Both the position numbers and the translations under genes were made by a program. Below the pieces are notes generated by a model, which made no database searches, had not been told where the DNA came from, and saw only the letters and a program-made list of their open reading frames with translations. Below are positions 12,213 through 39,405 of a stretch of 42,419 nucleotides of DNA, in pieces. The stretch is from assembly GCA_913056355.1 (NCBI GenBank), contig CAJXMX010000003.1:1-42419 (forward strand). The letters are read 5' to 3'. Every line of letters begins with the position of its first letter. The stretch's first letter is position 1. This DNA is from an uncultured Opitutales bacterium (GTDB lineage: Bacteria; Verrucomicrobiota; Verrucomicrobiia; Opitutales; Oceanipulchritudinaceae).

Positions 12213-12241
12213 TTGACAGCGATTATGGGGCTCCATGGTAT
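12213..12241 (+). promoter_or_regulatory. Possible sigma-70-like promoter upstream of the outer-membrane barrel gene
   Basis: TTGACA at 12213-12218, a 17-bp spacer and TGGTAT at 12236-12241. The -35 is perfect and the -10 is poor. If it is real, transcription begins near 12248, after the track's ATG at 12235. That would favour the in-frame GTG at 12274, or a TTG at 12268, as the true start of the gene. Confidence 0.3.
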
Positions 12242-20790: not shown

Positions 20791-25064
<4,274 letters not shown>

Positions 25065-25072
25065 GGCGGCGA

Positions 25073-27703
25073 TCAGGGATTTGCAATAACACGGTAAATG
25101 CGGAAATTGACCTCGGACGGCGGATGGTCGGTGGTTGGCGGACCCCGGTCGGTCCAGAAGAGCCGGCTTCCCTGGGTGTAGATGTAGGCGGGGTGGGCCA
25201 CGCGCCATCCACCGTTGTCATCCAGGTATTGTATCTGGAGACTGGATACGGAGGAGGTGTCGATCTCCAGCATCATGCCTCCGTCATCACGCTCCACCAG
25301 TTGATAAACGGTCACCGAGCTGCCGCTGTAGGTGTCGCTGTTCAGGATGTCCCCGGCGCTCAGGTAGATGCGGAGGCTGTCCGGGTACTGGTCAAGGTCC
25401 AGGCGCTGCACCGGAAACTGCTCCACGCCGGAGTTGCGGAAGTCCACATTGAAGCTGAAGGCTTCGTCTATAGCGTGGCGGGTCTGGTCGGACTCGTCGG
25501 TGAACTCCGGTTCGAGGACTGGAAGGTCCAGTGGCCAGAGGATGTAGCTGCGGTAGGTGGCGATATCCGCGTGATGATCGAGGAACTTCTCACCCTCCTC
25601 GAGGGTGTCCCCCTCCTGCAGGACGATCCGTTCGGTTCCCGTCGGGTAGCGCAGCCGGAACGGCGTGTACACATAGTACTCGAACTCCTCGTAGGTCTCC
25701 GGTACCGCGGGGGTGGTCTTCAGGCTGTCGTTGCCCGGCGAGGCAGGATAATCCGGATCATAGCTGGTCAGGTCGAAACTGATCTTGTAGGAGCGGTATC
25801 CGGTCAAGTCCCCATCGACGGATTCCGGCGGCAGGAAATCCCATCCAAGCTCATGCAGTCCCGTGATCCTGTTCAGGGGGGGCTGTCCGTTGGTCCAGTT
25901 ATCTTCCCGTAACTGAATTTCCCGGAAGAGGTCCGTGACATCAATATCGGGCATCTCCTTGACCAGGATGTCAATCGAGGTGGCCGTCCCGAATTCGGCG
26001 GTTGTGGATTCGGTGTCCAGGTTCCCGATGGAGAGCCGGATTGTATCGTCATCCTCGATGTCGTCGGCGGGAGCCTGTCCCGGGATGAGGGCGCTTTCCT
26101 GGTCGTCGTTGAGTCCGATATGGACCGTTGCGGTGGTGTAACCGGCGTAGATGGTCACCTCATGGGTCCGGTCGTCTTCCTGCCACGTGTCGGAAGAGGT
26201 TTGCAGCAGGTAGTCCCAGTCCTGCTCATCCGCATCCAGGTCGTTGTCGTAGGATGTCGCGGTCGTACCGCTACTTTCCAGGGTGAGGTCGAAAGTGATG
26301 TCGTGTTCGCTGGCCGCGCTCAGGTACACGGGAAAGGACAACTGGCCGTCGCTTTCCTTGATGATGCGTTCCGTTACTGGAATATAGCGCGGTTCCTCGG
26401 AATCGGTATCGTAGGCATCGTAGTCCGGATTGATCCGCCCGAAGCTGACTTTCACCGGATCGTTGTCCTCGATCTCAATGGAGAAGCTGGTGAACCCGGA
26501 AAACTCAATGACCGTTCCCGAGTCCACCGTGACCGGCGTGCCGAGCGTGATGTTGATCGTTTCCGTGGACTCGACCAGGTCGTCGTTCCAGGTGTAGATG
26601 GGAATGGTGACACTGTCGTCTCCACTTTCAAACAGCAGCGTATCGTTGTCCTCGAGGTAATCAGGATCGATATAGTAATCCGTGGTGTTCAGGGTGTCGT
26701 CCTCGTCCTCCCCCCGGGTGGCCGTTCCCGAGATCTGGAGGGGGATCTCCAGGTCCTCGGGAAGCGATCCGGAGATGGTCACCACCAGTCCAATGTAGGT
26801 GCCTTCCTCAACGCTGCGGGTGTTCTCCTCGTAATCCTCGTTGAATCCCGCGGTGACCGGATCGTTGTCGGTGACCGTGACCACGCATTCCGTGTCCCCG
26901 AGGGGATAACTGTCCCCGCTGTCCAGGCCGACTGCGCTCAGGATGCGGAAGATGAAGACTTCCTCCGATTCCTCGATCAGGTCGTCGAGCATCTGCAGGG
27001 TCACATAAGTCGAGGAGCTGTCCTCGGAAATTGTCGCCGTTCCGGTCAATTCCTCGTCTTCATCAAGGTCAAAGTCGCCTTCATCGACACTGACCAGCTC
27101 GAACTGGTAGGCGATGTTCAGGTCCTCCTCCATGGTGTCGCCCGCGGTCAGGTTGAAGTACAGCAGGTCTCCTTCCTCGGCATCCATTTCCGTGGTGGTC
27201 ACTTCGACCAGGCCGGTGGGTGCATCGCCGTCGAGGATGCTGAGGGTGTAGGTCATGGTCCCGACCGGACGGGCCACGGTAACCTCATCGGTCAGCACCT
27301 TGAGCAGGACGGTTTCCGTGTCTTCGTCAAGGTCATCCGAGGCGATGCTGACGGAGATGGTGAACTCCCGGGTTCCGGGGTCGAAGATCAGCACGCCCTG
27401 TCCGGTTTCCGGATCCCATGTGTAGCCAAGGTCCTCGTCGTCATTCTCCTCGATCCAGAAGTCATTGTCTTCGTCGTCGTCGCTCAGCATGATGGAGGCT
27501 GTCGAGGCGGGATCCACCTCGAAGGGGACGCGGACATCGAGGTAGGATTTCTCCGAGAGAACAAGGGTCACATCGACACTCGTTCCCTCCCGGGTGGTGT
27601 TTTCGATGTTCTCAAAGTAGAGAAGGGGATAAGCTCCGGCCCCGAGGGTGGCCAGGCCCATGGCGGCCAGGATGGAAAGGCGTTGCAGTTGACGAAGTCT
27701 CAT
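25073..27703 (-). CDS. Secreted acidic Calx-beta repeat protein
   Basis: 876 residues with a signal peptide (MRLRQLQRLSILAAMGLATLGAGA). About four Calx-beta-like repeats fill residues 25-620. Each has an EGTSVDVTLVLSE- or EEGDLLYFNLTAG-like start, a 'DDLIEESEEVFIFRIL' / 'NDDLVESTETINITLG' core and an end such as 'VTVTDNDP' or 'IEIEDNDP'. The protein is very rich in Asp and Glu (for example DDDEDNDFWIEENDDED), consistent with calcium binding. The last ~60 residues form a separate module (LQIQYLDDNGGWRVAH...RLFWTDRGPPTTDHPP...FRIYRVIANP) that I have seen at the ends of verrucomicrobial surface proteins. It starts 10 bp after the 27714-28934 gene. Likely an extracellular adhesion or matrix protein; the partner is unknown. 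Confidence 0.82.
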   Translation of the reverse strand: MRLRQLQRLSILAAMGLATLGAGAYPLLYFENIENTTREGTSVDVTLVLSEKSYLDVRVPFEVDPASTASIMLSDDDEDNDFWIEENDDEDLGYTWDPETGQGVLIFDPGTREFTISVSIASDDLDEDTETVLLKVLTDEVTVARPVGTMTYTLSILDGDAPTGLVEVTTTEMDAEEGDLLYFNLTAGDTMEEDLNIAYQFELVSVDEGDFDLDEDEELTGTATISEDSSSTYVTLQMLDDLIEESEEVFIFRILSAVGLDSGDSYPLGDTECVVTVTDNDPVTAGFNEDYEENTRSVEEGTYIGLVVTISGSLPEDLEIPLQISGTATRGEDEDDTLNTTDYYIDPDYLEDNDTLLFESGDDSVTIPIYTWNDDLVESTETINITLGTPVTVDSGTVIEFSGFTSFSIEIEDNDPVKVSFGRINPDYDAYDTDSEEPRYIPVTERIIKESDGQLSFPVYLSAASEHDITFDLTLESSGTTATSYDNDLDADEQDWDYLLQTSSDTWQEDDRTHEVTIYAGYTTATVHIGLNDDQESALIPGQAPADDIEDDDTIRLSIGNLDTESTTAEFGTATSIDILVKEMPDIDVTDLFREIQLREDNWTNGQPPLNRITGLHELGWDFLPPESVDGDLTGYRSYKISFDLTSYDPDYPASPGNDSLKTTPAVPETYEEFEYYVYTPFRLRYPTGTERIVLQEGDTLEEGEKFLDHHADIATYRSYILWPLDLPVLEPEFTDESDQTRHAIDEAFSFNVDFRNSGVEQFPVQRLDLDQYPDSLRIYLSAGDILNSDTYSGSSVTVYQLVERDDGGMMLEIDTSSVSSLQIQYLDDNGGWRVAHPAYIYTQGSRLFWTDRGPPTTDHPPSEVNFRIYRVIANP

Positions 27704-27713
27704 GGGTCGGAGG

Positions 27714-28934
27714 TCAAAAGGTTACCCGGGTCCAGGTGTCGTGGGAAATTGAGTACAGCCAGGCGTTTCCCCCGGTCGGGTATGCCAGGTACATGAATTC
27801 GCCTCTGGCGAAGTCGTACAGGTAGGGGAAGAGCTCCGTGGTGGTGTAGAGCCAGCTGTCGGAGATGGCCGGGCAGACCAGCCACATGGAATCGCGGTTT
27901 CCGGAGACGGGAGCGAAGCTCCAGCCCAGGCGGACCAGGTAGTCCCAAGTGGAGAGACGGTCGGAGTAGGTCCAGTCCTGCATCCACCGCATCAGGTACC
28001 AGCCCTGGCCGGTGTCTAAGTCGGCATACCAGGGAAACGGGATCTCCGAGGTGGCGGTGTCGGCGATATCCGGAATCTGGTCCCCATCTGCGTCCCCGGG
28101 GCTGTAGGCCGAGATGATATACAGGTTTTCCCACAATGCCGTCGGATCGGTTCCTTCCGGAATATAGCCCTCAAGGTCTTCTGCTTCAAGGTCATCGGAC
28201 CGGCTGATGGTCCCGATATAGTGACCATCCTGGTGGTAATTCAGGGTGCTGGTCCCGAAGATCCAGTACAGGTCCGTGTCCTCGTCGACGACCGGAAAGT
28301 CAAGCTGCCCGAGGTTTATGTTCACGCCGTACAATCCATAGGTCGTGTCCAGCGCGCGGACCTCGTCCACTCCATTGAAATTATAGTGGATTTCCCCCTC
28401 GAGGGTACGGATCGCATTATTTGGATACCAGTCCATCCACCCGGAAGCGCCGTCGAACATGCCTCCGGTGGAAACAGTCGGATAGGTTGCGATCCGCCTG
28501 GTCTTCCGGACAAAGCCAATCGTACCGGTGGAGAAGTAGGTGTCCGAATCGGGCATCTCTATGATCAGGTAGCCCAACTCCGGCACGGAGTAGGCGCTGT
28601 CCGTGGCGGAGGTATAGATGGCCTGGGTCAGGTACTCGTAAGTCGTTTCATCATCCTCATCCACCAGTTCACGATAGCGGATCTGGAAGTTGCGCAGAAT
28701 GAGCAGGGCGTCCTCCGGTTCGGAGCTATCCCCTTGCTGGACCGGAAAGTGGTAAAGGGCCTTGAAGGATGGAAAGTCAGCAAGGTCCGTGATTTGCCGG
28801 AAGGCCTGGATCTGGAATTCCAGGGTGCGTGCGTCCTCGGCCCGGATTTCCGGAAGACCGGCCATGGCCAGAGCGAAGAGGATGAAGGATGCGTGACGAA
28901 ACCATTTGAGGAGGTACGGAACTGGATTGCTCAT
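27714..28934 (-). CDS. Secreted protein with calcium-type motif and aromatic C-terminal module, first gene of cassette
   Basis: 406 residues, with a signal peptide near residues 10-32 (KWFRHASFILFALAMAGLPEIRA). The N-terminal ~270 residues are unrecognised and contain many Tyr, Thr and Asp. 'SPGDADGDQIPDIAD' resembles a thrombospondin type 3/dockerin calcium loop. The last ~100 residues repeat an aromatic pattern: 'GWYLMRWMQDWTY', 'LGWSFAPVS', 'MWLVCPAISDSWLYTTTELF', 'PYLYDFARGEFMYLAY', 'AWLYSISHDTWTRVTF'. I associate this Trp/Tyr module with many exported Puniceicoccaceae proteins; it may act in surface retention. The gene is followed by the Calx-beta gene after 10 bp. Its ATG faces the shared region with the two-component system, whose boxes lie 50-140 bp upstream. 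Confidence 0.72.
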   Translation of the reverse strand: MSNPVPYLLKWFRHASFILFALAMAGLPEIRAEDARTLEFQIQAFRQITDLADFPSFKALYHFPVQQGDSSEPEDALLILRNFQIRYRELVDEDDETTYEYLTQAIYTSATDSAYSVPELGYLIIEMPDSDTYFSTGTIGFVRKTRRIATYPTVSTGGMFDGASGWMDWYPNNAIRTLEGEIHYNFNGVDEVRALDTTYGLYGVNINLGQLDFPVVDEDTDLYWIFGTSTLNYHQDGHYIGTISRSDDLEAEDLEGYIPEGTDPTALWENLYIISAYSPGDADGDQIPDIADTATSEIPFPWYADLDTGQGWYLMRWMQDWTYSDRLSTWDYLVRLGWSFAPVSGNRDSMWLVCPAISDSWLYTTTELFPYLYDFARGEFMYLAYPTGGNAWLYSISHDTWTRVTF

Positions 28935-28985: not shown

Positions 28986-29075
28986 ATGACAACCGAATGT
29001 CGCCGGGAATGACAGAATTGTCATAATCGCGATGGAATGAATCATGACAAAACTGACATCTTTGGTTACTTGTCA
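28986..29075. promoter_or_regulatory. Cluster of TGACA boxes, one perfect palindrome ATGACA-N4-TGTCAT, between the secreted cassette and the two-component genes
   Basis: ATGACAGAATTGTCAT at 29009-29024 is a perfect 6-bp inverted repeat around four bases. It differs at one defined position from ATGACAANNTTGTCAT, the CusR/CopR copper box as I remember it. Related half-sites occur at 28986 (ATGACAA), at 29044 (ATGACAA followed by a degenerate CTGACAT) and at 29070 (TTGTCA). They sit in the 173-bp region between divergent genes and next to an OmpR-type regulator gene. This is the expected place for its operators. Confidence 0.6.
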
Positions 29076-29078
29076 AAA

Positions 29079-29094
29079 GGGGGTCCCGCCCCCC
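29079..29094 (+). other. Short G5/C5 hairpin in the leader of the response regulator gene
   Basis: GGGGG, five bases, then CCCCCC, ending 13 bases before the ATG of the regulator. If transcribed it would form a small stable stem near the ribosome site. It may be chance. Confidence 0.3.
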
Positions 29095-29107
29095 ATACTT
29101 GGCGGTT

Positions 29108-29785
29108 ATGAAAGTGCTGGTGGTGGAGGACGAGAAGAAGATCGCCGACTTCATGATCAAGGGTCTGGAGGCGCGGGGATTCGCCGTGGATGCCTGTGAC
29201 AACGGTGACGACGCCCTGATCCTGGCCCTGACCCGTCCCTACGACACGATCATCCTGGATATCATGCTTCCCGGGAAGGACGGGATCTCCATTCTCAAGT
29301 CCATGCGCCTGAAGGGCGTCAATACCCCGGTGATCGCCGTTTCGGCGAGGAGCGAGCTGGACGACCGGATCACCGGACTCGATGCGGGAGCCGACGATTA
29401 CCTGGCCAAGCCCTTCTTTGTCGATGAGCTGATCGCCCGTCTGCACGCCATTAACCGCCGCACAACCGGGGCGCAGCTCAACCTGCGCCGGGTGGGGGAA
29501 CTGTCCCTGAACCTGGCCACCCGCGAAGTCCTGGTGGGGGAGGTCCGTATCGACCTTTCCCCGCGGGAGTTCAACCTGCTCGAGTTCCTCATGCGTTCGC
29601 CCGGACGGGTCTACACCCGGACCCAGATCATGGAGTATGTCTGGCAGTACGATTTCGATCCCAACACCAACATTGTCGATGTCTGCATCAAGCGCATCCG
29701 CAAGAAACTTGCGGAGGCCAGTCCGGTCAACTTCGTGGAAACCATCCGGGGTGTCGGATACCGGATGATTCGGGAGCCCTCATGA
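29108..29785 (+). CDS. OmpR/CusR-type response regulator
   Basis: 225 residues from ATG at 29108; the track's TTG at 29099 adds three residues and is less likely. The receiver domain shows the acidic pocket 'VVEDEKK', phospho-acceptor Asp51 in 'IILDIMLPGKDG', and the conserved Lys in 'DYLAKPF'. The C-terminal winged helix (LSLNLATREVLVGEVRIDLSPREFNLLEFLMRSPGR... VDVCIKRIRKKL) is of OmpR/PhoB type. The next gene, the kinase, overlaps its stop as ATGA. With the upstream TGACA boxes and the kinase type, it most resembles CusR/CopR-like regulators, but the signal is not proven to be copper. Confidence 0.94.
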   Translation: MKVLVVEDEKKIADFMIKGLEARGFAVDACDNGDDALILALTRPYDTIILDIMLPGKDGISILKSMRLKGVNTPVIAVSARSELDDRITGLDAGADDYLAKPFFVDELIARLHAINRRTTGAQLNLRRVGELSLNLATREVLVGEVRIDLSPREFNLLEFLMRSPGRVYTRTQIMEYVWQYDFDPNTNIVDVCIKRIRKKLAEASPVNFVETIRGVGYRMIREPS

Positions 29786-31311
29786 AACTCGGCACGGTCT
29801 GGCACTCCTTCCGCTTCAGGATCGTCATCCTGACCACCCTCGGGCTCTGGGCCCTGCTCTCGGTCTGGATGTACGGGGTCTATCGGTTGGTCCTGACCAG
29901 CCGGCTCAATGAAGTCGACGCCCAACTGAGCGCAGCCGGTTACCAGATGATTCCGGTCATGCTTTTCCACCAGCGGGAACGGGGCATCCAGTCCGGGGAA
30001 TTCCAGCCCGAACTCTGGCAGCGTCTCCTCCTTGCCTATGACCGCTCGGGCCAGCGGATCGACCTCAACGCGGACCTGCCGGAAACCGACCTGGATGTAC
30101 TGGGCCGCCTGATACCGGAATCCGCCCCGGGAATGGAGGAACATGGGGGACCGCCTCCCGGAGACCCCAACGATCCGGGCAGCCGGACCCAGGGCCCCGG
30201 CGTTGATCGGTTCCCGGAAATGCGGGTGCCGCCATTCCTCCAGCTCGATCCTGCTCCGGTGCGTCCGCGTATGGAACAATTCGATACGGAGCTCGAGCCG
30301 GTCACCGTCGAGCTCTCCAACGGCCGCTGGCGCTGTGTGGCCTTCAGCGGGGCAGGGGTGCGGTTTGTCTTGGGCGAAGCCCTGGATCCGGTCTACCGGC
30401 AAAGCAAGGATGTTCTCAAGCTGATGGCCTGGCTTAATCCGGCCCTGTTGGTGCTGATCCTTATGGTTACCTGGCTGGTGGTGACCCGGGCCCTGCGGCC
30501 GATCCGGGAAATGACCGAGCTGGCCGGCGGTATCGATGCCGACCGCCTGGACGTGAGGCTCAAGCCGGAAATGGTCCCTTCGGAGTTCCAGCGGCTGGTC
30601 GATGTCTTCAATTCCATGCTGGGCCGGCTGGAGCGCAATTTCTACCAGGCCCGGCGGTTCAGTGCCGACGCCGCCCATGAGTTGAAAACGCCCCTGACCA
30701 TTCTCCAGGGCCAACTGGAGCAGGAGATCGCCCAGGAGGAAACAGGATCCAGCCGCCAGCAGTCCCTCAGTTCGCTCCTCGACGAGGTGGCCCGGCTCAA
30801 ACACATCACGGAGGGTCTGCTATTGCTGGCCCTTGGCGACAGCGGACGCGTCCGCACCTACCAGCAGGACCTGGACCTGCGCCAGCTGGTGGAGGAAATT
30901 GCCAATGACTACGAAGACAGCGGGCTGTCCTGGGAAATTAATCCGCAGCCGGCCAATCCGGTTCCCTTCCGCGGCGACAAGGTTCTCCTCATGAAGGCAG
31001 TCCAGAACCTGGTCTCCAACGCCACCAAGTACAACCGGCCGGAGGGGCGGGTGCGGATCGAATTCCAGGAAGAAGGCCGCCAGTTGCGCTTTCGTATCGG
31101 CAATACCGGGCCGGCCATTTCCCCGGAAATCCAGCCCCACGTCTTTGACCGTTTTGTGCGTGGGGATTCCTCCCGCAACCGCAAGGTGGACGGCACCGGG
31201 CTGGGCCTGAGCATTGTCCAGGAGCTGGTCCGGATCCACGGGGGGACGGTGGCCCTCCTGTCCAGCCAGGACGACTGGACCGAGTTCGAGGTGGTCCTGC
31301 CCCGGGAATGA
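29782..31311 (+). CDS. Membrane sensor histidine kinase (CusS-like)
   Basis: 509 residues. Membrane segments near 12-36 (RFRIVILTTLGLWALLSVWMYGVY) and 216-237 (WLNPALLVLILMVTWLVVTRAL) enclose a ~180-residue periplasmic sensor. The sensor contains a Pro/Gly-rich piece (GGPPPGDPNDPGSRTQGPG). A HAMP domain follows (RPIREMTELAGGIDADRL). The phospho-accepting His299 sits in 'RRFSADAAHELKTPLT', a wording close to CusS-type kinases. The ATPase domain has 'NLVSNATKYN' and 'GTGLGLSIVQELVRIHGG'. It is translationally coupled to the regulator (ATGA). The sensor has no His- or Met-rich copper site that I can see, so the ligand is open; a calcium or other cation signal would fit the neighbours. Confidence 0.93.
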   Translation: MKLGTVWHSFRFRIVILTTLGLWALLSVWMYGVYRLVLTSRLNEVDAQLSAAGYQMIPVMLFHQRERGIQSGEFQPELWQRLLLAYDRSGQRIDLNADLPETDLDVLGRLIPESAPGMEEHGGPPPGDPNDPGSRTQGPGVDRFPEMRVPPFLQLDPAPVRPRMEQFDTELEPVTVELSNGRWRCVAFSGAGVRFVLGEALDPVYRQSKDVLKLMAWLNPALLVLILMVTWLVVTRALRPIREMTELAGGIDADRLDVRLKPEMVPSEFQRLVDVFNSMLGRLERNFYQARRFSADAAHELKTPLTILQGQLEQEIAQEETGSSRQQSLSSLLDEVARLKHITEGLLLLALGDSGRVRTYQQDLDLRQLVEEIANDYEDSGLSWEINPQPANPVPFRGDKVLLMKAVQNLVSNATKYNRPEGRVRIEFQEEGRQLRFRIGNTGPAISPEIQPHVFDRFVRGDSSRNRKVDGTGLGLSIVQELVRIHGGTVALLSSQDDWTEFEVVLPRE

Positions 31312-31377
31312 GATCCGGCCTTAGGGATTGTCTTTCCCCCGCTGTCTTGTTTTCTGGTGTGAAACCCTAAAGACACC

Positions 31378-32778
31378 ATGAATACATCCCGCCGCTCCTT
31401 TCTTACCGGAATCAGTCTCCTGGCCGCCAATGCCGCCCTCAGCGTCCCCAAGATGAAATGGGTCCTCGGCGACCAGAAGCTGCGCGTGGTGCTGGTCGGG
31501 ACCGGCATCCGCGGGACCAGCTTCTGGGGCAAAAGGCTGGTTGAGAATTATCCCGAGCTGATCCAGTTCGTCGGCCTTTGCGACATCAATCCCGGCCGCC
31601 TGGAGTACGCCCTTGAATACATGGGCGTCGACTGCCCGACCTACACCAATTTCGACCGCATGCTGGATGAGACCATGCCGGACCTGATCATCGTCACCAC
31701 CGTCGATGCCACGCATCATACCTACATCATCAAGGGCTTGGGCCGGAACATCGATGTCCTGACCGAGAAGCCCCTGACCATCGACGAGGAGAAGTGCCAG
31801 CAGATCATCGACGCCGAGCGCCGCTCCCGGGCCAACCTGATTGTCGGCTTCAACTACCGCTGGAGCCCCTACATGACCAGGATCAAGGAGTTGTTGATGG
31901 AGGAGACCATCGGGAAAATCACCTCGGTCGACTTCAACTGGTACCTCAACACCTACCACGGCGCCTCCTACTTCCGCCGCTGGCATGGGCTGCGCCAAGC
32001 CGGCGGAACCCTCTGGATCCACAAGGCCACCCACCACTTCGACCTGGTCAACTGGTGGCTCGATTCCGACCCCGCGGAAGTGTACGCCTATGGGGACCTC
32101 GAGCTCTACGGGGAGAACAATCCATTCCGCGGGGACAACTGTCGCTCCTGCCCCCACCAGGGCGACTGCAAGTTCTATTGGGACATCACCCGGGACCAGC
32201 GCCTCATGGACCTCTATGTCAAGAATGAGCACCACGACGGCTACATCCGGGACAACTGCCTCTTTCGCCGGGAGATCAACATTTACGACAAGATGTCGGC
32301 CCAGATCAGGTACGCCAACAACGTCGTGGTGAATTATTCCCTGACCACCTATTCCCCATTCGAGGGTTGGCGCATCGCCTTCAACGGGACCGATGGCCGC
32401 ATCGAGGCCTGGCAGGACATTCCCTACTTCCAGGAAATGGAGGTCGACCAGGCGGAACTGCACGCCGCCGAGATGGACCAGTCCGGTACTGAGGAATTCG
32501 ATACAAAGCACATCGTCGTCCACAAGCTGTGGAATGACTTCGAGGCCCTTCCGGTCAGCTACGAGCGGGCCGGCCACGGGGGAGGAGACCAGCGCCTGCA
32601 CGACCAGATCTTCCGGCACCCGGACCAGAAGGATCCCTTCGACCGGGCGGCCGGCATCCGCGACGGGGCCATGTCCATCCTCATCGGCGTGGCCGCCCGC
32701 AACAGCATCGAAACCGGCGACCCGGTCCGCATCGCCTCACTCACCAACCTCGAGCCCCGGGCCCGGCGCCTGTCCTGA
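31378..32778 (+). CDS. Tat-exported Gfo/Idh/MocA-family oxidoreductase
   Basis: 466 residues. The N-terminus carries a twin-arginine signal (SRRSFLTGISLLAANAALS). The dinucleotide-binding motif is 'VVLVGTGIRGTSFWG' (near 37-51), and the family 'TEKPLT' with Lys131 follows. 'TLWIHKATHHFDLVNWW' holds the His expected in the active site. An unusual insert with three cysteines (NCRSCPHQGDC, near residues 254-264) could bind a metal. Family members oxidise or epimerise sugars and inositols using tightly bound NAD(P); Tat export with bound cofactor is common for them in Verrucomicrobia and Planctomycetes. The NTF2-like gene starts 37 bp downstream. No Shine-Dalgarno sequence precedes the ATG. Confidence 0.88.
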   Translation: MNTSRRSFLTGISLLAANAALSVPKMKWVLGDQKLRVVLVGTGIRGTSFWGKRLVENYPELIQFVGLCDINPGRLEYALEYMGVDCPTYTNFDRMLDETMPDLIIVTTVDATHHTYIIKGLGRNIDVLTEKPLTIDEEKCQQIIDAERRSRANLIVGFNYRWSPYMTRIKELLMEETIGKITSVDFNWYLNTYHGASYFRRWHGLRQAGGTLWIHKATHHFDLVNWWLDSDPAEVYAYGDLELYGENNPFRGDNCRSCPHQGDCKFYWDITRDQRLMDLYVKNEHHDGYIRDNCLFRREINIYDKMSAQIRYANNVVVNYSLTTYSPFEGWRIAFNGTDGRIEAWQDIPYFQEMEVDQAELHAAEMDQSGTEEFDTKHIVVHKLWNDFEALPVSYERAGHGGGDQRLHDQIFRHPDQKDPFDRAAGIRDGAMSILIGVAARNSIETGDPVRIASLTNLEPRARRLS

Positions 32779-32815
32779 CGCCGGACAAGGGATTCTTTCA
32801 CCTGTTCCCAGCCCC

Positions 32816-33217
32816 ATGACCGATTCCCCAAAATACGACGCACTCCGGCAAGTCCTGCAGCAATGGCTGGACGGCATTAATTCCGGCGATGTCGACGGCG
32901 TCACCTCCCTCTACAAGGAGGATGCCGTGCTCCTGCCCACCTTCTCCAGCAGACGCCTGACCCGGCCCGCCGAGCGGCGGGCTTATTTTGAGCGGGTCAG
33001 CAGCAAGCTGAAGCTGTCCGTCGAACTGCACCAGCGGACCCTCGTCATGCAGCAGTTCTCGGATTCCATCCATGGCCTGAGCGGGATCTACCTCTGGCGC
33101 TTCGAGGAGGATGAGGAAATGCTCAGCTTTGAAGCACGGTTCACCTACACGGTGGACCTCAGCCGGCCCGACCCGATCCTGCACCACCACAGCTCCCAGA
33201 TCCCCCGCACGGTCTGA
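32816..33217 (+). CDS. NTF2/SnoaL-like (DUF4440/SgcJ-type) protein
   Basis: 133 residues from ATG at 32816 (MTDSPKYDALRQVLQQWLDGINSGDVDGV). The track start at 32393 lies inside the oxidoreductase and is rejected. The N-terminal helix, then 'SLYKEDAVLLPTFSS', 'GLSGIYLWRFEED' and 'SFEARFTYTVDL' match the cone-shaped NTF2-like fold, most like the CaMKII-association/SgcJ group. Such small proteins are binding domains or enzymes of varied specificity; none can be assigned. It is in the cytoplasm (no signal peptide). The last codons are partly duplicated 21 bp beyond the stop (see repeat). Confidence 0.75.
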   Translation: MTDSPKYDALRQVLQQWLDGINSGDVDGVTSLYKEDAVLLPTFSSRRLTRPAERRAYFERVSSKLKLSVELHQRTLVMQQFSDSIHGLSGIYLWRFEEDEEMLSFEARFTYTVDLSRPDPILHHHSSQIPRTV

Positions 33218-33257
33218 TCGGGGACGTATCTTTCCAACATCCCCCGGACCGTCTGAT
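33200..33257 (+). repeat. Imperfect 19-bp direct repeat at the end of the NTF2-like gene
   Basis: ATCCCCCGCACGGTCTGAT (33200-33218) recurs as ATCCCCCGGACCGTCTGAT (33239-33257), 17 of 19 identical, 39 bp apart. The first copy holds the last codons and stop of the gene; the second is intergenic. It looks like a small local duplication. Confidence 0.65.
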
Positions 33258-33278
33258 AGAATTACCGGCGGTGGACCT

Positions 33279-33306
33279 TTGACGTGGTACGGGTAAACGC
33301 TATTTT
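33279..33306 (+). promoter_or_regulatory. Sigma-70-like promoter, apparently leaderless, for the PL22-like gene
   Basis: TTGACG (33279-33284), 16 bases, TATTTT (33301-33306). The A of the ATG at 33313 is seven bases after the -10, where transcription would be expected to start. There is therefore no room for a 5' leader or Shine-Dalgarno sequence. Confidence 0.5.
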
Positions 33307-33312
33307 GATCTC

Positions 33313-34611
33313 ATGAAAACCCTCTTCACGATTCTCCTGACCCTTGTTTTCGCCACCTCCCTTACGGCCCGGATCGGGACCCGCTTCCCCTCCGAGCGGA
33401 AAGTGGTCACGGATCCGGTCACCGGGGTGGACCTGGTCTTCCTGACCAGCAAGCCGGCCGGTGATTCCAAGATCTATCCGACCCATGCCCAGTGGACCGC
33501 CGACGGAAAGTGGGTCATTTTCCGTTCCAACCGCGTTCCCGGCGAGGCCATGGCGGTCAATGAGGAGTCCGGCGACATTGTCCAGGTAACGGAGGGCGGC
33601 TACACCGGGCAGCTGTGTATCGCCCAGAAGTCAATGAAGCTCTACATCATGCGGGATCCCAACCGGGAAATCGGGGCCGGCCGGGATGTGCCGTATGGCG
33701 ACATGGAGGTGGTTGCCATCGACCTGGCAAAGCTCTTCGCCGACAGCGCCGCCGGAACGCTTCAGGACAAGTCCCACTACGAGACTGTTTGCGGTGCGGT
33801 CCCCGCCGGGATGGGAGCCCGGGGCGACATGGATCTTGATGCCAATGAAGACCTGGTGTACTTCCGCCTGGGAAGCGAATATGCGGCCCGGCACCTGCCC
33901 GGGGACGTCGAGGTGGTCGAGGATTACGGGCCCCGGAACATGGGAGCCGGACCCGGCGGAATCGCCAGGATGGACCTGGAGTCCGGCGAAGTCAGCCTGG
34001 TCACGGTGGTCGGTTTCCAGGTCGGGCACGTCCAGTCCAGCCGCTATGTGCCCGGCCAGGTCGTCTTTTGCTGGGAAACCGGCGGCAAGTCGCCCCAGCG
34101 TACGTGGATAGTCAACGGAGACGGCACCGGCCTGCGTCCCCTCTACAAGGAATCCTCCTTCGAATGGGTGACCCACGAGGCCGTCACCGGGCCCAACGAG
34201 GTGACCTTCGCCATCCTCGGCCACCGCCGTCCGGGACAAGTCGATGAATGGGGTGAGTGCGGCTCCCGCGACAAGCCCACCGGGCTGGCCATCATCAATA
34301 CCGAGACCGGCCTCATGAAAATCGAGGGACAAACCGACGAGGGCAGTGGCTTCTGGCACGTTCACGCCTCCTCGGACGGGCGATTTGCCTGCGGGGACGA
34401 CTTTTCCCGCAGCCTGTACCTGATCGACCGGCGAACCGGCGAAAAGATGATGCTGACCACCGGGCACAAACCGACCGCGCGGGACCATGTCCATCCCACC
34501 TTCAGCGAGGACGGGACCCGGATCCAGTTCCAGTCGGCCATGCTTTCCGAGGACGACCGCAGCATGAATATTTGTGTCGTCCATGTCCCCCGGGAATGGT
34601 TGGATCGGTAG
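33313..34611 (+). CDS. Oligogalacturonate-lyase-like (PL22) beta-propeller protein, secreted
   Basis: 432 residues with a signal peptide (MKTLFTILLTLVFATSLTA). The start of the mature protein (RIGTRFPSERKVVTDPVTG, VFLTSKPAGDSKIYPTHAQW) and the blade motifs 'WTADGKWVIFRSNR', 'SSDGRFACGDD' and 'HPTFSEDGTRIQFQS' match my memory of oligogalacturonide lyases (PL22), seven-bladed propellers that bind manganese through His and Gln. Candidate metal residues are the His in 'EWVTHEAV' and those in 'FWHVHASSDG'. The usual role is cleavage of pectin-derived dimers to ketouronates. No other pectin gene is in the window, so another uronate substrate, or a binding function as in TolB-like propellers, remains possible. 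Confidence 0.68.
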   Translation: MKTLFTILLTLVFATSLTARIGTRFPSERKVVTDPVTGVDLVFLTSKPAGDSKIYPTHAQWTADGKWVIFRSNRVPGEAMAVNEESGDIVQVTEGGYTGQLCIAQKSMKLYIMRDPNREIGAGRDVPYGDMEVVAIDLAKLFADSAAGTLQDKSHYETVCGAVPAGMGARGDMDLDANEDLVYFRLGSEYAARHLPGDVEVVEDYGPRNMGAGPGGIARMDLESGEVSLVTVVGFQVGHVQSSRYVPGQVVFCWETGGKSPQRTWIVNGDGTGLRPLYKESSFEWVTHEAVTGPNEVTFAILGHRRPGQVDEWGECGSRDKPTGLAIINTETGLMKIEGQTDEGSGFWHVHASSDGRFACGDDFSRSLYLIDRRTGEKMMLTTGHKPTARDHVHPTFSEDGTRIQFQSAMLSEDDRSMNICVVHVPREWLDR

Positions 34612-34660
34612 CTGGATTTTCATTACACGTCTTCTTTGGCCCGCAAGGGCTCCCTCTCCC

Positions 34661-35209
34661 ATGCCAGTAAATCCTCTCATCAAGGCACTCGTGCGAACCA
34701 AGTTCCGGTTCACCAGCCGGCAAACGGCGGACCGGCAGGCCGAGCGCTGGCTGCGCTACTACCTTGGTCTGGCCGGAAAGCTGGATGCCTCCGGCGGATC
34801 CCGCCCGGTCCGGGTGCCGGCCATGCAGGGGGTGGACGAGGACATGCGGGACTGGTCCTTCTTCATGCTTCTTGAGCACAACACCATCGTCAACCACGCC
34901 ATCAGCCGGGTGGTGGAGCGCCTGGCCAGGGGTTGGGATCCCGTCCAGCCCGGAGACATCGATCCCAAAACGGGCGTCATGCCCTCGGCCAATCCCGGGC
35001 CGGAACAGGTGGAGGCTTTCCGCGATTCGGTACGGAGTCACCTGAAAATGGTTGCCTCGTTGGGACAATTGCGCGGCACAAAAACCCGGGAACATCCGGT
35101 CTTCGGGACATTTGACGCCCATGCCTGGAACTGTATGTTTGGATTTCACCTTCAGGTTCACGCCCGGCAGGCGAAGTACATCGTGCAACACTCAGTTAAT
35201 ACCGGATAG
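34661..35209 (+). CDS. DinB-superfamily protein
   Basis: 182 residues from ATG at 34661 (MPVNPLIKALVRTKFRFTSRQ); the track start at 34574 overlaps the previous gene and is rejected. The four-helix pattern with 'FFMLLEHNTIVNHAISRVV' and 'FGFHLQVHARQAKYIVQH' supplies the His residues that bind a metal in DinB/YfiT-type proteins. Members include thiol-S-transferases and uncharacterised stress proteins; the exact role is unknown. The following gene starts 4 bp after its stop, so the two are co-translated. Confidence 0.72.
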   Translation: MPVNPLIKALVRTKFRFTSRQTADRQAERWLRYYLGLAGKLDASGGSRPVRVPAMQGVDEDMRDWSFFMLLEHNTIVNHAISRVVERLARGWDPVQPGDIDPKTGVMPSANPGPEQVEAFRDSVRSHLKMVASLGQLRGTKTREHPVFGTFDAHAWNCMFGFHLQVHARQAKYIVQHSVNTG

Positions 35210-35213
35210 ACCC

Positions 35214-35759
35214 ATGGAATCGGCATCAGAAGCGACTGGAAACGGGAATGGCCTCCTCTACTTCGCCTATGGTTCCAATATGGGCCAACGGCGGATGCTG
35301 GCCCGCATCCCCAGAGCAAGTTTCCAGGGAATCGCCACTCTCCCGTACCACGAACTGCGCTTTCACAAGATCAGCCTGATCGACGGGTCGGGCAAGTGCG
35401 ACGCCTACCGGACGGGTCTTGAGGAGGACCGGGTCTTCGGGGTCCTGTACCGGATCCGGACGGACGACCTCCCCGCCCTGGACCGTTTCGAGGGGCAGGG
35501 CCTCGGTTACGACCGGGAGGAAGTAAGTGTTCTTCTGGAATCAGGCGAGCAGGTCCGGGCCTTATCCTATTTCGCAACCCGGATCAATCCGGCCCTGCAA
35601 CCCATGGACTGGTACCATGAACACGTCCTCCACGGGGCCCGGGAAGCCGGCCTCCCGGAGGATTACCTGGCCCGGATCGAGACCGTGGTGCCGACTCCTG
35701 ATTATGACCTTTCGCGACGCGAGCACGAACTCTCGATTTACCAGTCGAACAATGAATAG
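35214..35759 (+). CDS. Gamma-glutamylcyclotransferase/AIG2-like protein
   Basis: 181 residues. The substrate loop 'LYFAYGSNMGQRRM' is the hallmark of the GGCT/AIG2 fold, and the catalytic Glu is Glu93 in 'LDRFEGQGLGYDRE'. 'VFGVLYRIRTDDLPALDRFEG' and 'ALSYFATRINPALQPMDWYHEHVLHGA' fit GGCT-like enzymes, which release 5-oxoproline from gamma-glutamyl peptides or amines. A ~10-residue N-terminal tail (MESASEATGNGNG) precedes the domain. It starts 4 bp after the DinB-like gene; the PhzF-like gene follows 30 bp later. Confidence 0.84.
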   Translation: MESASEATGNGNGLLYFAYGSNMGQRRMLARIPRASFQGIATLPYHELRFHKISLIDGSGKCDAYRTGLEEDRVFGVLYRIRTDDLPALDRFEGQGLGYDREEVSVLLESGEQVRALSYFATRINPALQPMDWYHEHVLHGAREAGLPEDYLARIETVVPTPDYDLSRREHELSIYQSNNE

Positions 35760-35789
35760 CCTGCCGGTCAGGAATCGGGTTCGTTTCCC

Positions 35790-36569
35790 ATGAGGCTGCA
35801 ATTGTACCAGGTCGATGCCTTTGCGGAGAAGCTCTTCACCGGCAACCCGGCCGCCGTATGCCCGCTTGAGGAATGGCTGCCCGAGGCGGTCATGCAGTCC
35901 ATCGCCCTGGAAAACAATCTCTCGGAAACGGCCTTCGTCGTTCGGGAGGCGAGCGGCTGGCGGATTCGCTGGTTCACCCCCGGGAGCGAGGTCGACCTCT
36001 GCGGCCACGCCACGCTGGCCACCGCCTGGGTGCTCTTTGACCTCGGCCTGGTCGATGGCAGCGAGCTGTTCCTCCAGTCCCGCAGCGGGAAACTGAAGGT
36101 GTCGCGTGACGACGGCCTGCTGACCCTGGACTTTCCAGCCCTTCAGGTGTCGCCATGCCTGTTGCCGGATTCGCTGGTGGCTGCCCTGGGCCGCAGGCCA
36201 GCGGAATTGTATCGGGCCATGGACTACATGGCGGTGTTCGACACCGAGGAGGAAATCCTTTCCCTCGAGCCGGATTTCAACGCATTGGGCCGTATCGACC
36301 TGCGCGGCCTGATCGTCACCGCTCCCGGGAAGGAAGCCGACTTCGTGAGCCGCTTCTTTGCCCCGCGGGTGGGCGTCAACGAGGATCCCGTGACCGGTTC
36401 CGCCCATTGCATGCTGACCCCGTTCTGGGCCGCCCGCCTCGGCCGCAACCGTCTCCAGGCCCGGCAACTGTCCCGCCGGGGCGGCTCCCTGGTCTGCGAA
36501 CTGCGCGGCGACCGAGTCCTGATCAGCGGGCGTTGTGTTCCCTACCTAAAGGGCACCATCGACATCTGA
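35790..36569 (+). CDS. PhzF-family isomerase/epimerase-like protein
   Basis: 259 residues, the normal length. 'YQVDAFAEKLFTGNPAAVCPL' opens the family pattern, the catalytic Glu46 lies in 'NNLSETAFVV', 'PGSEVDLCGHATLATAW' is the first-domain signature, and 'VGVNEDPVTGSAHCML' the second. The fold is two diaminopimelate-epimerase-like halves; PhzF itself isomerises DHHA in phenazine synthesis. No other phenazine gene is here, so this is a general PhzF-like protein of unknown substrate. Its 3' end overlaps the convergent BASS gene by 24 bp. Confidence 0.9.
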   Translation: MRLQLYQVDAFAEKLFTGNPAAVCPLEEWLPEAVMQSIALENNLSETAFVVREASGWRIRWFTPGSEVDLCGHATLATAWVLFDLGLVDGSELFLQSRSGKLKVSRDDGLLTLDFPALQVSPCLLPDSLVAALGRRPAELYRAMDYMAVFDTEEEILSLEPDFNALGRIDLRGLIVTAPGKEADFVSRFFAPRVGVNEDPVTGSAHCMLTPFWAARLGRNRLQARQLSRRGGSLVCELRGDRVLISGRCVPYLKGTIDI

Positions 36570-37511
36570 GCGCCTGGGATCGGCCTTCCGGGGCATCCGC
36601 AGCCGCCAGTATCCGGCCAGGATGCTGCCGATGACGGAATGGATAACCGCGGAGATCGCGCAGGGAATGGCCGTCAGCGGATTGGCGAAATGCGAGCGGG
36701 CCAGAACCGTGGCCAGCCCGGAATTCTGCATGCCCACCTCGATGGAAACCGTCCGGCAGATGATGGGGCCATACCCGAGCATCCGGGCGAAACCGTAGCC
36801 GCTGGCGAAGGCCGCGCTGTGCAGCAAGACCACCGCCCCGAGCAGCTTGAGTCCGGATTCCCGCACGTCTTCGGCGTTGGCCCCGATGATGCTGGCGCAG
36901 ATCAGGGCGATGACGAAGACGGCCACCAGCGGCCCGACCGGAAGGACCACCTTGACCGCCTTGGGAAAGAGGTGGTGCAGGCTGATCCCGAGCACCAGCG
37001 GAAGGAGGACGATCTTGACCATGCTGGCGAAGAGCTGCCAGCCGTTGACCGGCACGTACTGCCCGGCCAGCCAGGAGGTCAGCAGGGGAGTCAGGACAAT
37101 GGCCACTGCCGTGGAGCACATGGTCATCAGCACCGAGAGGGCCACGTTGGCCCGGGCCAGGTAGGCCACGACATTGGAGGCCGTTCCTCCCGGGCAGCAG
37201 GCGACCAGGATCAGGCCCACCTTGTAGGCCACCGGCAGGTCCAGCAGGTGGGCGATGCTCCAGGCACAGGCCGGCATCAGGAGGAACTGGGCCAGCAGGC
37301 CGGTCCCCACCGATCGGGGCATGGTCAGGACCCGCTTGAAGTCGTCCAGGCTCAGGGTGATGCCCATTCCCAGCATGATGATGCCCAGTCCCCAGACAAT
37401 GAAAGGCCGGTCGAACCAGGTAAACAACTCCGGTTGAAACAGCGCCGCCAGGCAGCACAGGAGCACCCACACGGGAAACAGGTTGGTGATGATGCTCAGG
37501 ATTCGCTGCAT
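36546..37511 (-). CDS. Bile acid:sodium symporter (BASS) family transporter
   Basis: 321 residues from ATG at 37511 (MQRILSIITNLFPVWVLLCCLAAL); the track start at 37568 adds a non-hydrophobic leader and is rejected. About nine or ten membrane segments. The family motifs are visible: 'IIMLGMGITLSLDDFKRVL', 'ILVACCPGGTASNVVAYLARANVALSV' (the sodium-site crossover region) and 'SIEVGMQNSGLATVLARSHF'. BASS proteins import organic anions (bile-acid-like compounds, pantoate, pyruvate, 2-keto acids) with sodium. The substrate is not readable here. The gene lies 3' of a strong terminator on its own strand, so it needs its own promoter in 37512-37595. Confidence 0.92.
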   Translation of the reverse strand: MQRILSIITNLFPVWVLLCCLAALFQPELFTWFDRPFIVWGLGIIMLGMGITLSLDDFKRVLTMPRSVGTGLLAQFLLMPACAWSIAHLLDLPVAYKVGLILVACCPGGTASNVVAYLARANVALSVLMTMCSTAVAIVLTPLLTSWLAGQYVPVNGWQLFASMVKIVLLPLVLGISLHHLFPKAVKVVLPVGPLVAVFVIALICASIIGANAEDVRESGLKLLGAVVLLHSAAFASGYGFARMLGYGPIICRTVSIEVGMQNSGLATVLARSHFANPLTAIPCAISAVIHSVIGSILAGYWRLRMPRKADPRRSDVDGAL

Positions 37512-37595
37512 GGCCGGGAAATGGTCGGGGGCTAAACGGTTTACAAACTCTTTGCCGCCGCCTGGCAATCCCGCAATCGTGCCGGCCTGAAGACA

Positions 37596-37631
37596 GAAAA
37601 AGCCGGCAGGCCTCTCGCGGAGCCTGCCGGC
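37596..37631 (-). terminator. Rho-independent terminator for the small gene/EF-hand transcript
   Basis: GCCGGCAGGC and GCCTGCCGGC form a perfect 10-bp stem with a 10-base loop. On the minus strand it is followed directly by TTTTTCTGTC. It lies 55 bases after the candidate small gene and 214 bases after the EF-hand stop, and insulates the BASS gene. Confidence 0.85.
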
Positions 37632-37686
37632 CGTATTCAGGACTTGCCGGATCTACCGTTTCAAACAACCCCTTGCCAGTTCCCCT

Positions 37687-37785
37687 CTAGACCTCCAGAT
37701 ACTCCAACCAGCGTCCACGCTGTTCCCCTCGCTCCAGACAGAGACCAACAAGGTGGCCAATTTGTGGGGTGCATGGACGCGGCAT
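37687..37785 (-). CDS. Candidate small protein gene, 32 residues
   Basis: The ORF is below the length limit of the track. ATG at 37785 is preceded by AGAGGAG with a six-base spacer, the clearest Shine-Dalgarno sequence in the window, where most genes have none. The peptide begins MPRPCTPQIGHLVGLCLERG and ends RWLEYLEV before TAG; it looks like one amphipathic helix with Trp and Leu. A strong terminator follows after 55 bases. Third-position GC is lower than in neighbouring genes, which weakens the case. No homologue is known to me, and it may instead be part of a long 3' untranslated region of the EF-hand mRNA. Confidence 0.4.
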   Translation of the reverse strand: MPRPCTPQIGHLVGLCLERGEQRGRWLEYLEV

Positions 37786-37845
37786 CACTAACTCCTCTGG
37801 GAACGTGGCATTGCTTTTCACGGCAGATACCGGCTTTTCACTACA

Positions 37846-38241
37846 TTAGGATCTATGGTGACGGGGCGGGTGGGGCCTCATGAAGATCACCAGAGCCTCC
37901 TCAAGCTCGGCTTCATTGAGTTCCCCATCCCCGTCCAGATCCGCGGTTGAAATCATATCCAGAGCCACCTGCCCGTGGTCCGGCTCGGGCGGTTCTTCCA
38001 TTTCCTCATCCCCGGGACGAGGCGGACGGTTATCATACAGGAAGGCCATGGCCGTGGCTAGTTCCTCGGCCTTCAGGGCGCCGTCCAGGTCGGCGTCAAA
38101 GTCGGCCACCAGTTGGGCCGCCATTTCTTCCGGAGGGGGAGGCGGGGGCGGGCGGTCCCCCCGTTGACATTCATTCTCGGCAGCCCCGACCGTCAGGCTT
38201 CCCAATCCCAGCAGGGCGATCACATACAGTTGGTTTTTCAT
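37846..38241 (-). CDS. Secreted Pro-rich protein with two EF-hands
   Basis: 131 residues from ATG at 38241 (MKNQLYVIALLGLGSLTVGAAENECQ, a signal peptide); the ATG at 38262 would add seven residues. A seven-Pro run (RGDRPPPPPPPEEM) precedes the first EF-hand loop DADLDGALKAEE. A Pro/Glu-rich linker leads to the second, DLDGDGELNEAE. Both have Asp at 1, 3 and 5, Gly at 6 and Glu at 12, so both should bind calcium. The tail is His/Pro/Arg-rich (PHPPRHHRS). Similar small Pro-rich EF-hand proteins are, as I recall, often coded near two-component systems in Verrucomicrobia. A TGACA box lies in its upstream region, shared with the IMPase-like gene. Confidence 0.82.
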   Translation of the reverse strand: MKNQLYVIALLGLGSLTVGAAENECQRGDRPPPPPPPEEMAAQLVADFDADLDGALKAEELATAMAFLYDNRPPRPGDEEMEEPPEPDHGQVALDMISTADLDGDGELNEAELEEALVIFMRPHPPRHHRS

Positions 38242-38316
38242 AGTTACTCTGTTTTCTTGCATCCCTTCATTGGGATTGTACGGGAGGGAGTATGACCGTT
38301 CCTGATGAACCCTTCA

Positions 38317-38342
38317 TGTCAGTTTAATGACAAATTGTTCAT
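38317..38342. promoter_or_regulatory. Second TGACA-type box between the EF-hand and IMPase-like genes
   Basis: ATGACAAATTGTTCAT (38327-38342) matches ATGACAANNTTGTCAT at 12 of 14 defined positions and is followed by TTT. Just before it, TGTCA (38317-38321) and TGACA (38328-38332) form an inverted pair. These resemble the boxes at 28986-29075 and suggest the same regulator. The element ends four bases before the ATG at 38347. Confidence 0.45.
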
Positions 38343-38346
38343 TTTC

Positions 38347-39405
38347 ATGTCGACGTCCGGAGATGCCTCCTGTTGCCATTCTGGAATGGACGCCGAATCC
38401 CAGTTGGACCCCATGCGGGACTTTCTCATCTCCGTGGGCGAGGCGGTGTGCGATGTTGCCCAGGCCATGCTGCGGCGGGAGGATGTCGAGCAGCGCACCC
38501 GGATCCGGTTCCATCATGACTCGGACGTGATCTACGCCATCGATGTCGAGGCCGAGGAAGTGATCGTCCGGATGCTGGAGGAGAATGCCGCCCGCTTCGG
38601 GGGCATCGTCCTGGTGGCTGAGGGAATCGGGAAGACCGGCGAGACGGTTTACCCCCGGGGCTCGTCCCCGGAACAGGCTCAATGGCGGGTGCTGCTCGAT
38701 CCGATCGACGGGACCCGCGGCCTGATGTACGACAAGCGCTCGGCCTTCTTCCTGGCCGGGGCGGCTCCGAACCGGGGAATCGGAACCCGGCTGCGCGACA
38801 TTGAGGTCTCCGTCATGGTGGAGATCAGCACCAGCCGCATGCATGTCAGCGATGTCCTCTCCGCCGTCCGTGGGGGCGGGGCGCAGGCCTACCGCCGCAA
38901 CCTCCTGGACAATTCCCGCGAGCCCTTCCGTCCGCAGCCCTCCCGGCACACCACCATCCGGGGCGGCTTTGCCCAGATCAGCCGCTTTTTCCCATCCGGC
39001 AAGGAACTGATGGCCCGCATCGAGGAGGAATTGATCGCCCGCCTATTTCCGGATGCCCCGGACGGGGAGGTGCTGACTTTCGAGGACCAGTACATTGCCT
39101 CCGGCGGGCAGCTGTATGAACTGCTGACCGGCAAGGACCGCTTCATCGCCGACATCCGCCCGGCGGTCTTCCAGCAGCTCCACGGGAGTGTGCGCCCAAC
39201 CCTGACCTGCCATCCCTACGACCTCGCGGCCCACCTGATCGGCGAGGAGTGCGGCCTGATCCTGACCGGCCTCGACGGAAAACCCCTGGATGGTCCCATG
39301 GACACCCTGACCCCGATGGGCTGGGTCGGCTACGCCAACCGGGAAATCCACAGCGAGGTGGGTCCCGTATTCATGGAACTGCTACAAATCCACGGGCTGG
39401 CCTGA
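38347..39405 (+). CDS. Inositol-monophosphatase/FBPase-superfamily protein
   Basis: 352 residues from ATG at 38347; ATGs at 38386 and 38413 are alternatives, since the first ~22 residues (MSTSGDASCCHSGMDAESQL) do not look conserved, and the track's start at 38305 crosses the box region. The metal site 'WRVLLDPIDGTRGLMY' (residues ~113-129) and the C-terminal 'HPYDLAAHLIGEECGLILT' are the two superfamily motifs; the usual 'GEE' is replaced by 'VAEGIG'. Members dephosphorylate inositol phosphate, PAP or fructose bisphosphate with magnesium. At ~350 residues with a long middle insert (GGGAQAYRRNLLDNSREPF), it is not a standard SuhB or CysQ. The convergent ABC permease gene ends 6 bp away. Confidence 0.8.
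   Translation: MSTSGDASCCHSGMDAESQLDPMRDFLISVGEAVCDVAQAMLRREDVEQRTRIRFHHDSDVIYAIDVEAEEVIVRMLEENAARFGGIVLVAEGIGKTGETVYPRGSSPEQAQWRVLLDPIDGTRGLMYDKRSAFFLAGAAPNRGIGTRLRDIEVSVMVEISTSRMHVSDVLSAVRGGGAQAYRRNLLDNSREPFRPQPSRHTTIRGGFAQISRFFPSGKELMARIEEELIARLFPDAPDGEVLTFEDQYIASGGQLYELLTGKDRFIADIRPAVFQQLHGSVRPTLTCHPYDLAAHLIGEECGLILTGLDGKPLDGPMDTLTPMGWVGYANREIHSEVGPVFMELLQIHGLA

Follow-up and report, generated by a model that had tools for sequence, protein, structure and literature searches.

What does a CusRS-like two-component system sense, and what does it control, when its putative binding sites lie beside genes for calcium-type envelope proteins? The question is raised by a contig of 42,419 nucleotides (nt) from an uncultured Opitutales bacterium (CAJXMX010000003.1, assembly GCA_913056355.1), analysed here over its whole length and referred to as the window. 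The initial annotation of this stretch proposed that TGACA palindromes upstream of a secreted cassette, and of a divergent pair of genes encoding EF-hand and IMPase-like proteins, define a single regulon that would not be a classic copper system. Our analysis suggests a system, hitherto undescribed, for sensing calcium or another cation and, on balance, we lean towards a CusRS-like system with an autoregulated EF-hand partner protein that would act on the kinase and bind Ca2+ or another cation. The response regulator (29108-29785, + strand) is a CusR/CopR-like protein of 225 amino acids, and is followed by a sensor histidine kinase (29782-31311, + strand) that contains a HAMP domain and an acidic, proline-rich periplasmic loop of approximately 178 residues. 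The pair has the composition of an OmpR-family system, with receiver and winged-helix output domains (Response_reg and Trans_reg_C) and an adjoining kinase with HisKA and HATPase_c domains, all above the Pfam cut-offs.

Two boxes precede the regulator gene. A perfect palindrome, ATGACAGAATTGTCAT, is located at 29009-29024 (22.0 bits), at -99 relative to the ATG of the regulator and at a distance of 75 nt from that of the first cassette gene, and a second box, ATGACAAAACTGACAT, which has one mismatch to ATGACANNNNTGTCAT, is located at 29044-29059 (19.7 bits), at -64 of the regulator. Half-sites on the forward strand are found at 28986-28991 (ATGACA, the closest to the cassette gene) and at 29070-29075 (TTGTCA), so that the perfect palindrome and the three related half-sites described by the initial annotation are all present at 28986-29075. 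A CusR-class palindrome is accordingly found in the promoter of the system itself, as in CusRS. The remaining box, ATGACAAATTGTTCAT, lies at 38327-38342 (18.5 bits), with its far edge 101 nt from the ATG of the EF-hand gene at 38241. This distant site does exist 9.3 kb away, as originally noted, but the 12/14 match then assigned to it counted four free bases, and it agrees with 10 of the 12 specified bases of the pattern. Loose matches to the consensus are only weakly informative because their enrichment is mild: ATGACANNNNTGTCAT with up to three mismatches occurs at 20 sites in the window against 9.7 expected, a number reached by 1 of 100 shuffles. We therefore built a 22-position matrix from the promoters of 21 relatives, leaving the window out. 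Over the 42 kb window the three highest scores of this matrix belong, in descending order, to the boxes at 29009, 29044 and 38327, with the fourth-ranking site scoring only 6.0 bits against 18.5 for the third, which bears out the earlier statement that the window holds no comparable box elsewhere. The best score per simulated window (n = 60) had a median of 5.7 and a maximum of 14.1 bits. The three boxes of the window are confirmed as real.

Conservation of the boxes in orthologous promoters had been named beforehand as one test that could refute the proposal, and the boxes are kept in relatives. Of 373 genomes searched from the same order, 44 besides this one contain a regulator orthologue, at 48-67% identity. 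At 17 of 41 orthologues (identity at least 52%) the divergent neighbour of the regulator is a gene for a small secreted two-EF-hand protein, an arrangement observed at none of 19 more distant paralogues (p = 5e-4 versus the orthologues) and at none of 80 regulators drawn mostly from other bacteria (p = 7e-10). The regulator tree shows the pairing on several branches that are separate from one another, and it extends to further groups within the phylum (L237, L242, L243 and L245). Upstream of the regulator, 15 of the 17 paired loci possess a box with no more than two mismatches to ATKACANNNNTGTMAT, compared with 0.48 expected from shuffles, and 12 possess a box with no more than one mismatch (0.03 expected). 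Position is conserved as well as sequence, since 19 of 29 good boxes of relatives begin 60-66 nt upstream of the regulator start codon; the window box at 29044, being at -64, is therefore the conserved site and the perfect palindrome at -99 an extra one. The 16-mer of this palindrome recurs unchanged in a relative (L034), between the EF-hand and regulator genes, and G045 has an additional EF-hand gene, remote from the first, that is likewise preceded by a perfect box (L131). The form of the box varies by lineage between ATGACA..TGTCAT and ATTACA..TGTAAT, the latter being the core of the Escherichia coli CusR/HprR box CATTACAAAATTGTAATG (PMC9302797), and this core, ATTACAAAATTGTAAT, is found exactly in L070 and L081.

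Several variations on the arrangement were encountered in relatives. In one sub-clade (L082, L091, L094 and L096) a palindrome of the ATTAAT-N4-ATTAAT type replaces the ATKACA form upstream of the regulator, suggesting drift of the binding site. In L089 and L094 the divergent gene encodes a secreted protein of larger size, which has YHYH motifs and more than one EF-hand loop. The regulator gene of G018 (L034:9421-10087) contains one in-frame TAA, which represents either a broken gene or a sequencing error, yet neither the box nor the neighbouring EF-hand gene is damaged. Among named genomes, relatives of the regulator are found in cyanobacteria, one betaproteobacterium and metagenome-assembled genomes (MAGs) of Verrucomicrobia. 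A related kinase in a Pseudanabaenaceae MAG (L150) is encoded by an open reading frame (ORF) of 873 amino acids with a very long, low-complexity periplasmic insert rich in Pro, Gly and Ser.

In the window the EF-hand gene is located approximately 6.5 kb past the kinase, with unrelated genes intervening. It encodes a small protein of 131 amino acids when read from the ATG at 38241 (37846-38241, - strand; the ORF may start at 38262), with two EF-hands (Pfam EF-hand_1, 30.3 bits against a cut-off of 25.4), and an N-terminus that resembles a signal peptide; the gene has a boxed promoter. Its top match in six other genomes is in each case the EF-hand gene adjacent to the regulator, and a genome of the same genus that has no regulator orthologue (G003) yielded no match to it. 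On these matches the window gene is assigned as the orthologue of the regulator neighbour of relatives. Its promoter box also resembles theirs in sequence (ATGACAAATTGTTCATTTTC in the window versus ATGACAAAAAATTCATTTTC in L033) and in spacing, the distance to the ATG being 101 nt here, approximately 97 nt in L033 and approximately 94 nt in L032 (ATGACAAAAAATTAAT), both of the same genus. The simplest account would be that the EF-hand gene and its half of the promoter were parted from the regulator and that the box was retained.

It could be argued instead that the regulator promoter is the sole real target in this genome, that the site at 38327 arose by chance or serves the IMPase-like gene with which the EF-hand gene has a common intergenic gap, and that control of the EF-hand gene has been lost. 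This site is the lowest-scoring of the three and was not reported at E<=10 by a covariance model of the relatives' sites, and is therefore the weakest on sequence alone, so that comparative evidence has to carry it. Its 18.5 bits nevertheless exceed the simulated maximum of 14.1, and the EF-hand promoters of the same genus have a similar site at near-equal distance, which makes loss of control quite improbable. The presence of the IMPase-like gene (38386-39405, + strand; Pfam Inositol_P, 31.9 bits against a cut-off of 27; other possible starts at 38305, 38347 and 38413) in the regulon, as originally proposed, has no independent support, and the box adjoining it is best explained, by its genus-typical spacing, as that of the EF-hand gene.

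The whole genome (4.3 Mb in 425 contigs, a fragmentation in which weak sites may escape detection) was searched for further boxes. Exact matches to ATGACANNNNTGTCAT number two, at 29009 and on contig C226 at 6782, compared with none for a reversed-pattern control; at one mismatch there are nine sites versus two for the control, and the one-mismatch palindromes outside the window were dropped as targets since inspection placed them inside ORFs. The covariance model, which scored 150 of 495 first-look candidates and may thus miss weak sites, reported two places alone, 29008-29026 as the top match and C226:6782-6799. The best matches of the full-genome scan that had been called for are therefore promoter matches. 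The box on C226 begins at -63 relative to the probable start codon (ATG) of a gene for a secreted Cthe_2159-family protein with W-rich N-terminal repeats (L019:4404-6734). We rejected this family as a core target, as it is present in only two of 19 genomes, this one and G295, and no box was found in G295. A possible weak additional target is a stand-alone receiver-domain gene, directly downstream of TGACAATTGTGTCA at C262:5688-5701 (L017 near 1501).

These searches bear on whether the system might be a classic copper/silver CusRS, with the EF-hand and secreted genes as incidental targets. TIGR01387 and TIGR01386 are the top NCBIfam families for the regulator and the kinase respectively, and the box is of the class bound by E. 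coli CusR/HprR. Both scores, however, fall below the family cut-offs (229.5 against 279.2 bits for the regulator and 242.8 against 292.55 bits for the kinase), and residues 209-507 of the kinase alone align, leaving the sensor region unaligned. By composition, the 178-residue loop contains 2 His and 1 Cys, together with 5 Met, and a sequence search for a solved structural relative of this loop gave none. No copper gene is among the genome-wide model matches, which comprise the two places above and may omit weak sites, and the recurrent neighbours of the regulator are EF-hand genes. A classic copper role is less likely because of the scores, the unaligned sensor, the few His residues and the absence of copper genes among these matches; we consider it improbable, as the initial annotation had anticipated.

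Evidence for a relationship between the EF-hand protein and the kinase comes from some distant relatives in which the two are joined. Seven kinases (L085, L245, L247, L248, L261, L264 and L265) contain a canonical EF-hand pair within the periplasmic loop. They belong to one regulator clade, comprising L085 and six of the eight matching genomes of family f49. Pfam EF-hand motifs were detected in all four fused kinases scanned, three at or over a cut-off and L248 just under. The kinase inserts are homologous to the free EF-hand proteins (E 1e-13 to 1e-8), and an EFDGP motif between the two loops is common to the insert and to the free proteins of close relatives. Among members of the clade, only the free protein is present in G416; several genomes show the fused form, with no free neighbour across the sequence that was read; and G582 (L245/L262) and G716 (L264) encode both a fused kinase and a divergent free protein with four EF-hands. 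The occurrence of one domain both free and fused within a clade usually signals functional contact. The split and fused forms thus suggest that the EF-hand protein contacts the sensor, and physical contact with the kinase may be inferred from the seven relatives. We put forward, tentatively, the more specific proposal of a calcium two-component system of this phylum, in which a CusS-type kinase would have this protein as a detachable subunit for sensing Ca2+, secreted separately in most lineages, fused in one clade and controlled by the regulator.

Alternatively, the system might simply produce the protein to buffer a cation in the periplasm, with no action on the kinase. SilE/PcoE-type proteins buffer silver and copper in this way, and a small, secreted protein expressed from its own boxed promoter, alongside a kinase that has no EF-hand in the window, would suit such a role. 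Against a pure buffer, EF-hand pairs homologous to the free protein are found inside the kinase loops of one clade, and in L231 the divergent slot encodes a weak match to Metal_resist (CpxP/Spy-type; 22.3 bits against a cut-off of 29.2), as would be expected if this slot were reserved for an accessory protein of the kind known from CpxP-CpxA. We regard a pure buffer as unlikely, although it is a reading to be taken seriously.

In the autoregulated-partner circuit that we favour, the kinase would sense a periplasmic state and the regulator would bind the CusR/HprR-class palindrome, consensus ATKACANNNNTGTMAT, in its own promoter and in that of the EF-hand gene. It would thereby control its own operon and the separately boxed EF-hand gene, and in this genome probably also the Cthe_2159-family gene on another contig, with the divergent secreted cassette as a possible further target. 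The EF-hand protein would most likely be a periplasmic partner of the kinase, binding Ca2+ or another hard cation and either reporting to the kinase or buffering; because the EF-hand gene would itself be a target of the regulator, the circuit would include feedback of the kind proposed for CpxP on CpxA. Computation establishes that the boxes exist and are kept at a fixed position in relatives, that the EF-hand gene is orthologous to the neighbour of the regulator, and that kinases of one clade contain EF-hand pairs, whereas binding by the regulator, the ligand, protein contact and the sign of control are inferred.

Judged from the EF-hands, the ligand is most likely to be Ca2+, since EF loops of canonical form recur and the position-2 proline that is the hallmark of lanmodulin loops is missing. 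Lanthanides are possible ligands of EF-hand proteins, and bacteria with regulation that responds to lanthanides exist, but neither loop of the window protein (DADLDGALKAEE and DLDGDGELNEAE) has a proline at position 2, and a lanmodulin-like protein with a lanthanide as its ligand is highly improbable. A structure prediction of the EF-hand protein alone (mean pLDDT 55) placed helices beside the expected loops, and the model was unusable.

A number of observations weigh against the favoured circuit, in addition to the modest rank of the box at 38327. More than half of the regulator orthologues have no small EF-hand neighbour, and the neighbour counts are not phylogenetically independent. The window kinase contains no EF-hand, nor do most kinases that have a free EF-hand neighbour, and the EF loops of the same-genus L032 and L033 are degenerate at position 6. 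It is because of these degenerate loops and of the window kinase that we keep both the ligand and the feedback conditional.

The secreted cassette divergent to the regulator comprises three genes on the reverse strand: a first gene of 406 amino acids (27714-28934), whose ATG lies 52 nt from the nearest half-site, a Calx-beta domain protein of 876 amino acids (25073-27703; Pfam Calx-beta, 32.4 bits against a cut-off of 27), and an outer-membrane-type protein of 369 amino acids that matches no Pfam family (23943-25052). The last has a distant paralogue 11 kb off at 12235-13470 (25.5% identity, E 3e-14). All three are possible targets by promoter position. The neighbourhoods of other regulators showed no cassette of this kind, except that the C-terminus of the first protein weakly matches a protein downstream of the kinase in L033, so that position is the sole argument for including the Calx-beta cassette in the regulon. 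The originally proposed regulon of envelope proteins accordingly stands for the EF-hand gene, with its conserved boxes and its divergent position in relatives, and is only possible for the cassette.

Further candidate targets are found in other lineages. In G075 perfect boxes precede a VTC-domain gene (L127:608-1402) and a secreted arylsulfotransferase gene (L134:1594-3016), and the regulators of L244 and L246 have an arylsulfotransferase-like gene as their divergent neighbour. The VTC polyphosphate polymerase was rejected as a core target, as no box is found upstream of VTC in this genome (L143) nor in the two further genomes inspected for it (L142 and L144). The VTC, arylsulfotransferase and Cthe_2159 targets look lineage-specific.

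Only a small number of the pathways by which bacteria sense calcium are understood, and for the majority of bacterial EF-hand proteins a partner is not known. The gene pairing, the conserved box and the split and fused kinases name such a partner together with a testable circuit, and provide a signal hypothesis for a group of sensors that would be annotated as heavy-metal sensors by similarity alone. The parts are familiar, namely an OmpR-type system, a CusR-class box, EF-hand proteins and accessory proteins; no description of their combination across the phylum in split and fused forms, or of this pairing of an EF-hand gene with a regulator and kinase, was found in the literature searched, which mostly lay outside subscription papers. 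CarSR and CvsSR are Ca2+-responsive two-component systems. The window system resembles CusRS/HprRS of E. coli in its regulator and kinase families (TIGR01387/TIGR01386) and in the class of its box, but differs in scoring under the family cut-offs, in its unaligned sensor region and in its predicted targets, which are EF-hand and other secreted proteins, with no copper genes found. CpxP is a small periplasmic accessory protein, encoded beside and controlled by its two-component system, for which feedback on the kinase has been proposed (PMC4160245). The EF-hand protein is likewise encoded beside the system in relatives and its control is predicted, although it has an EF-hand rather than a CpxP/Spy fold and contact with the kinase is suggested by the fused forms. 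The nearest precedents found are EfhP/CarSR and CaBP-SigV. In Pseudomonas aeruginosa, the periplasmic two-EF-hand Ca2+ sensor EfhP and the Ca2+-induced two-component system CarSR are presented separately (PMC9132961), whereas in the present system the regulator has the EF-hand gene as its conserved neighbour in relatives and as a predicted target with a box of its own. In Caulobacter vibrioides, the periplasmic EF-hand protein CaBP forms a mutual regulatory loop with the adjacent regulator SigV (PMC13171946), which is an ECF sigma factor, in contrast to the two-component system described here.

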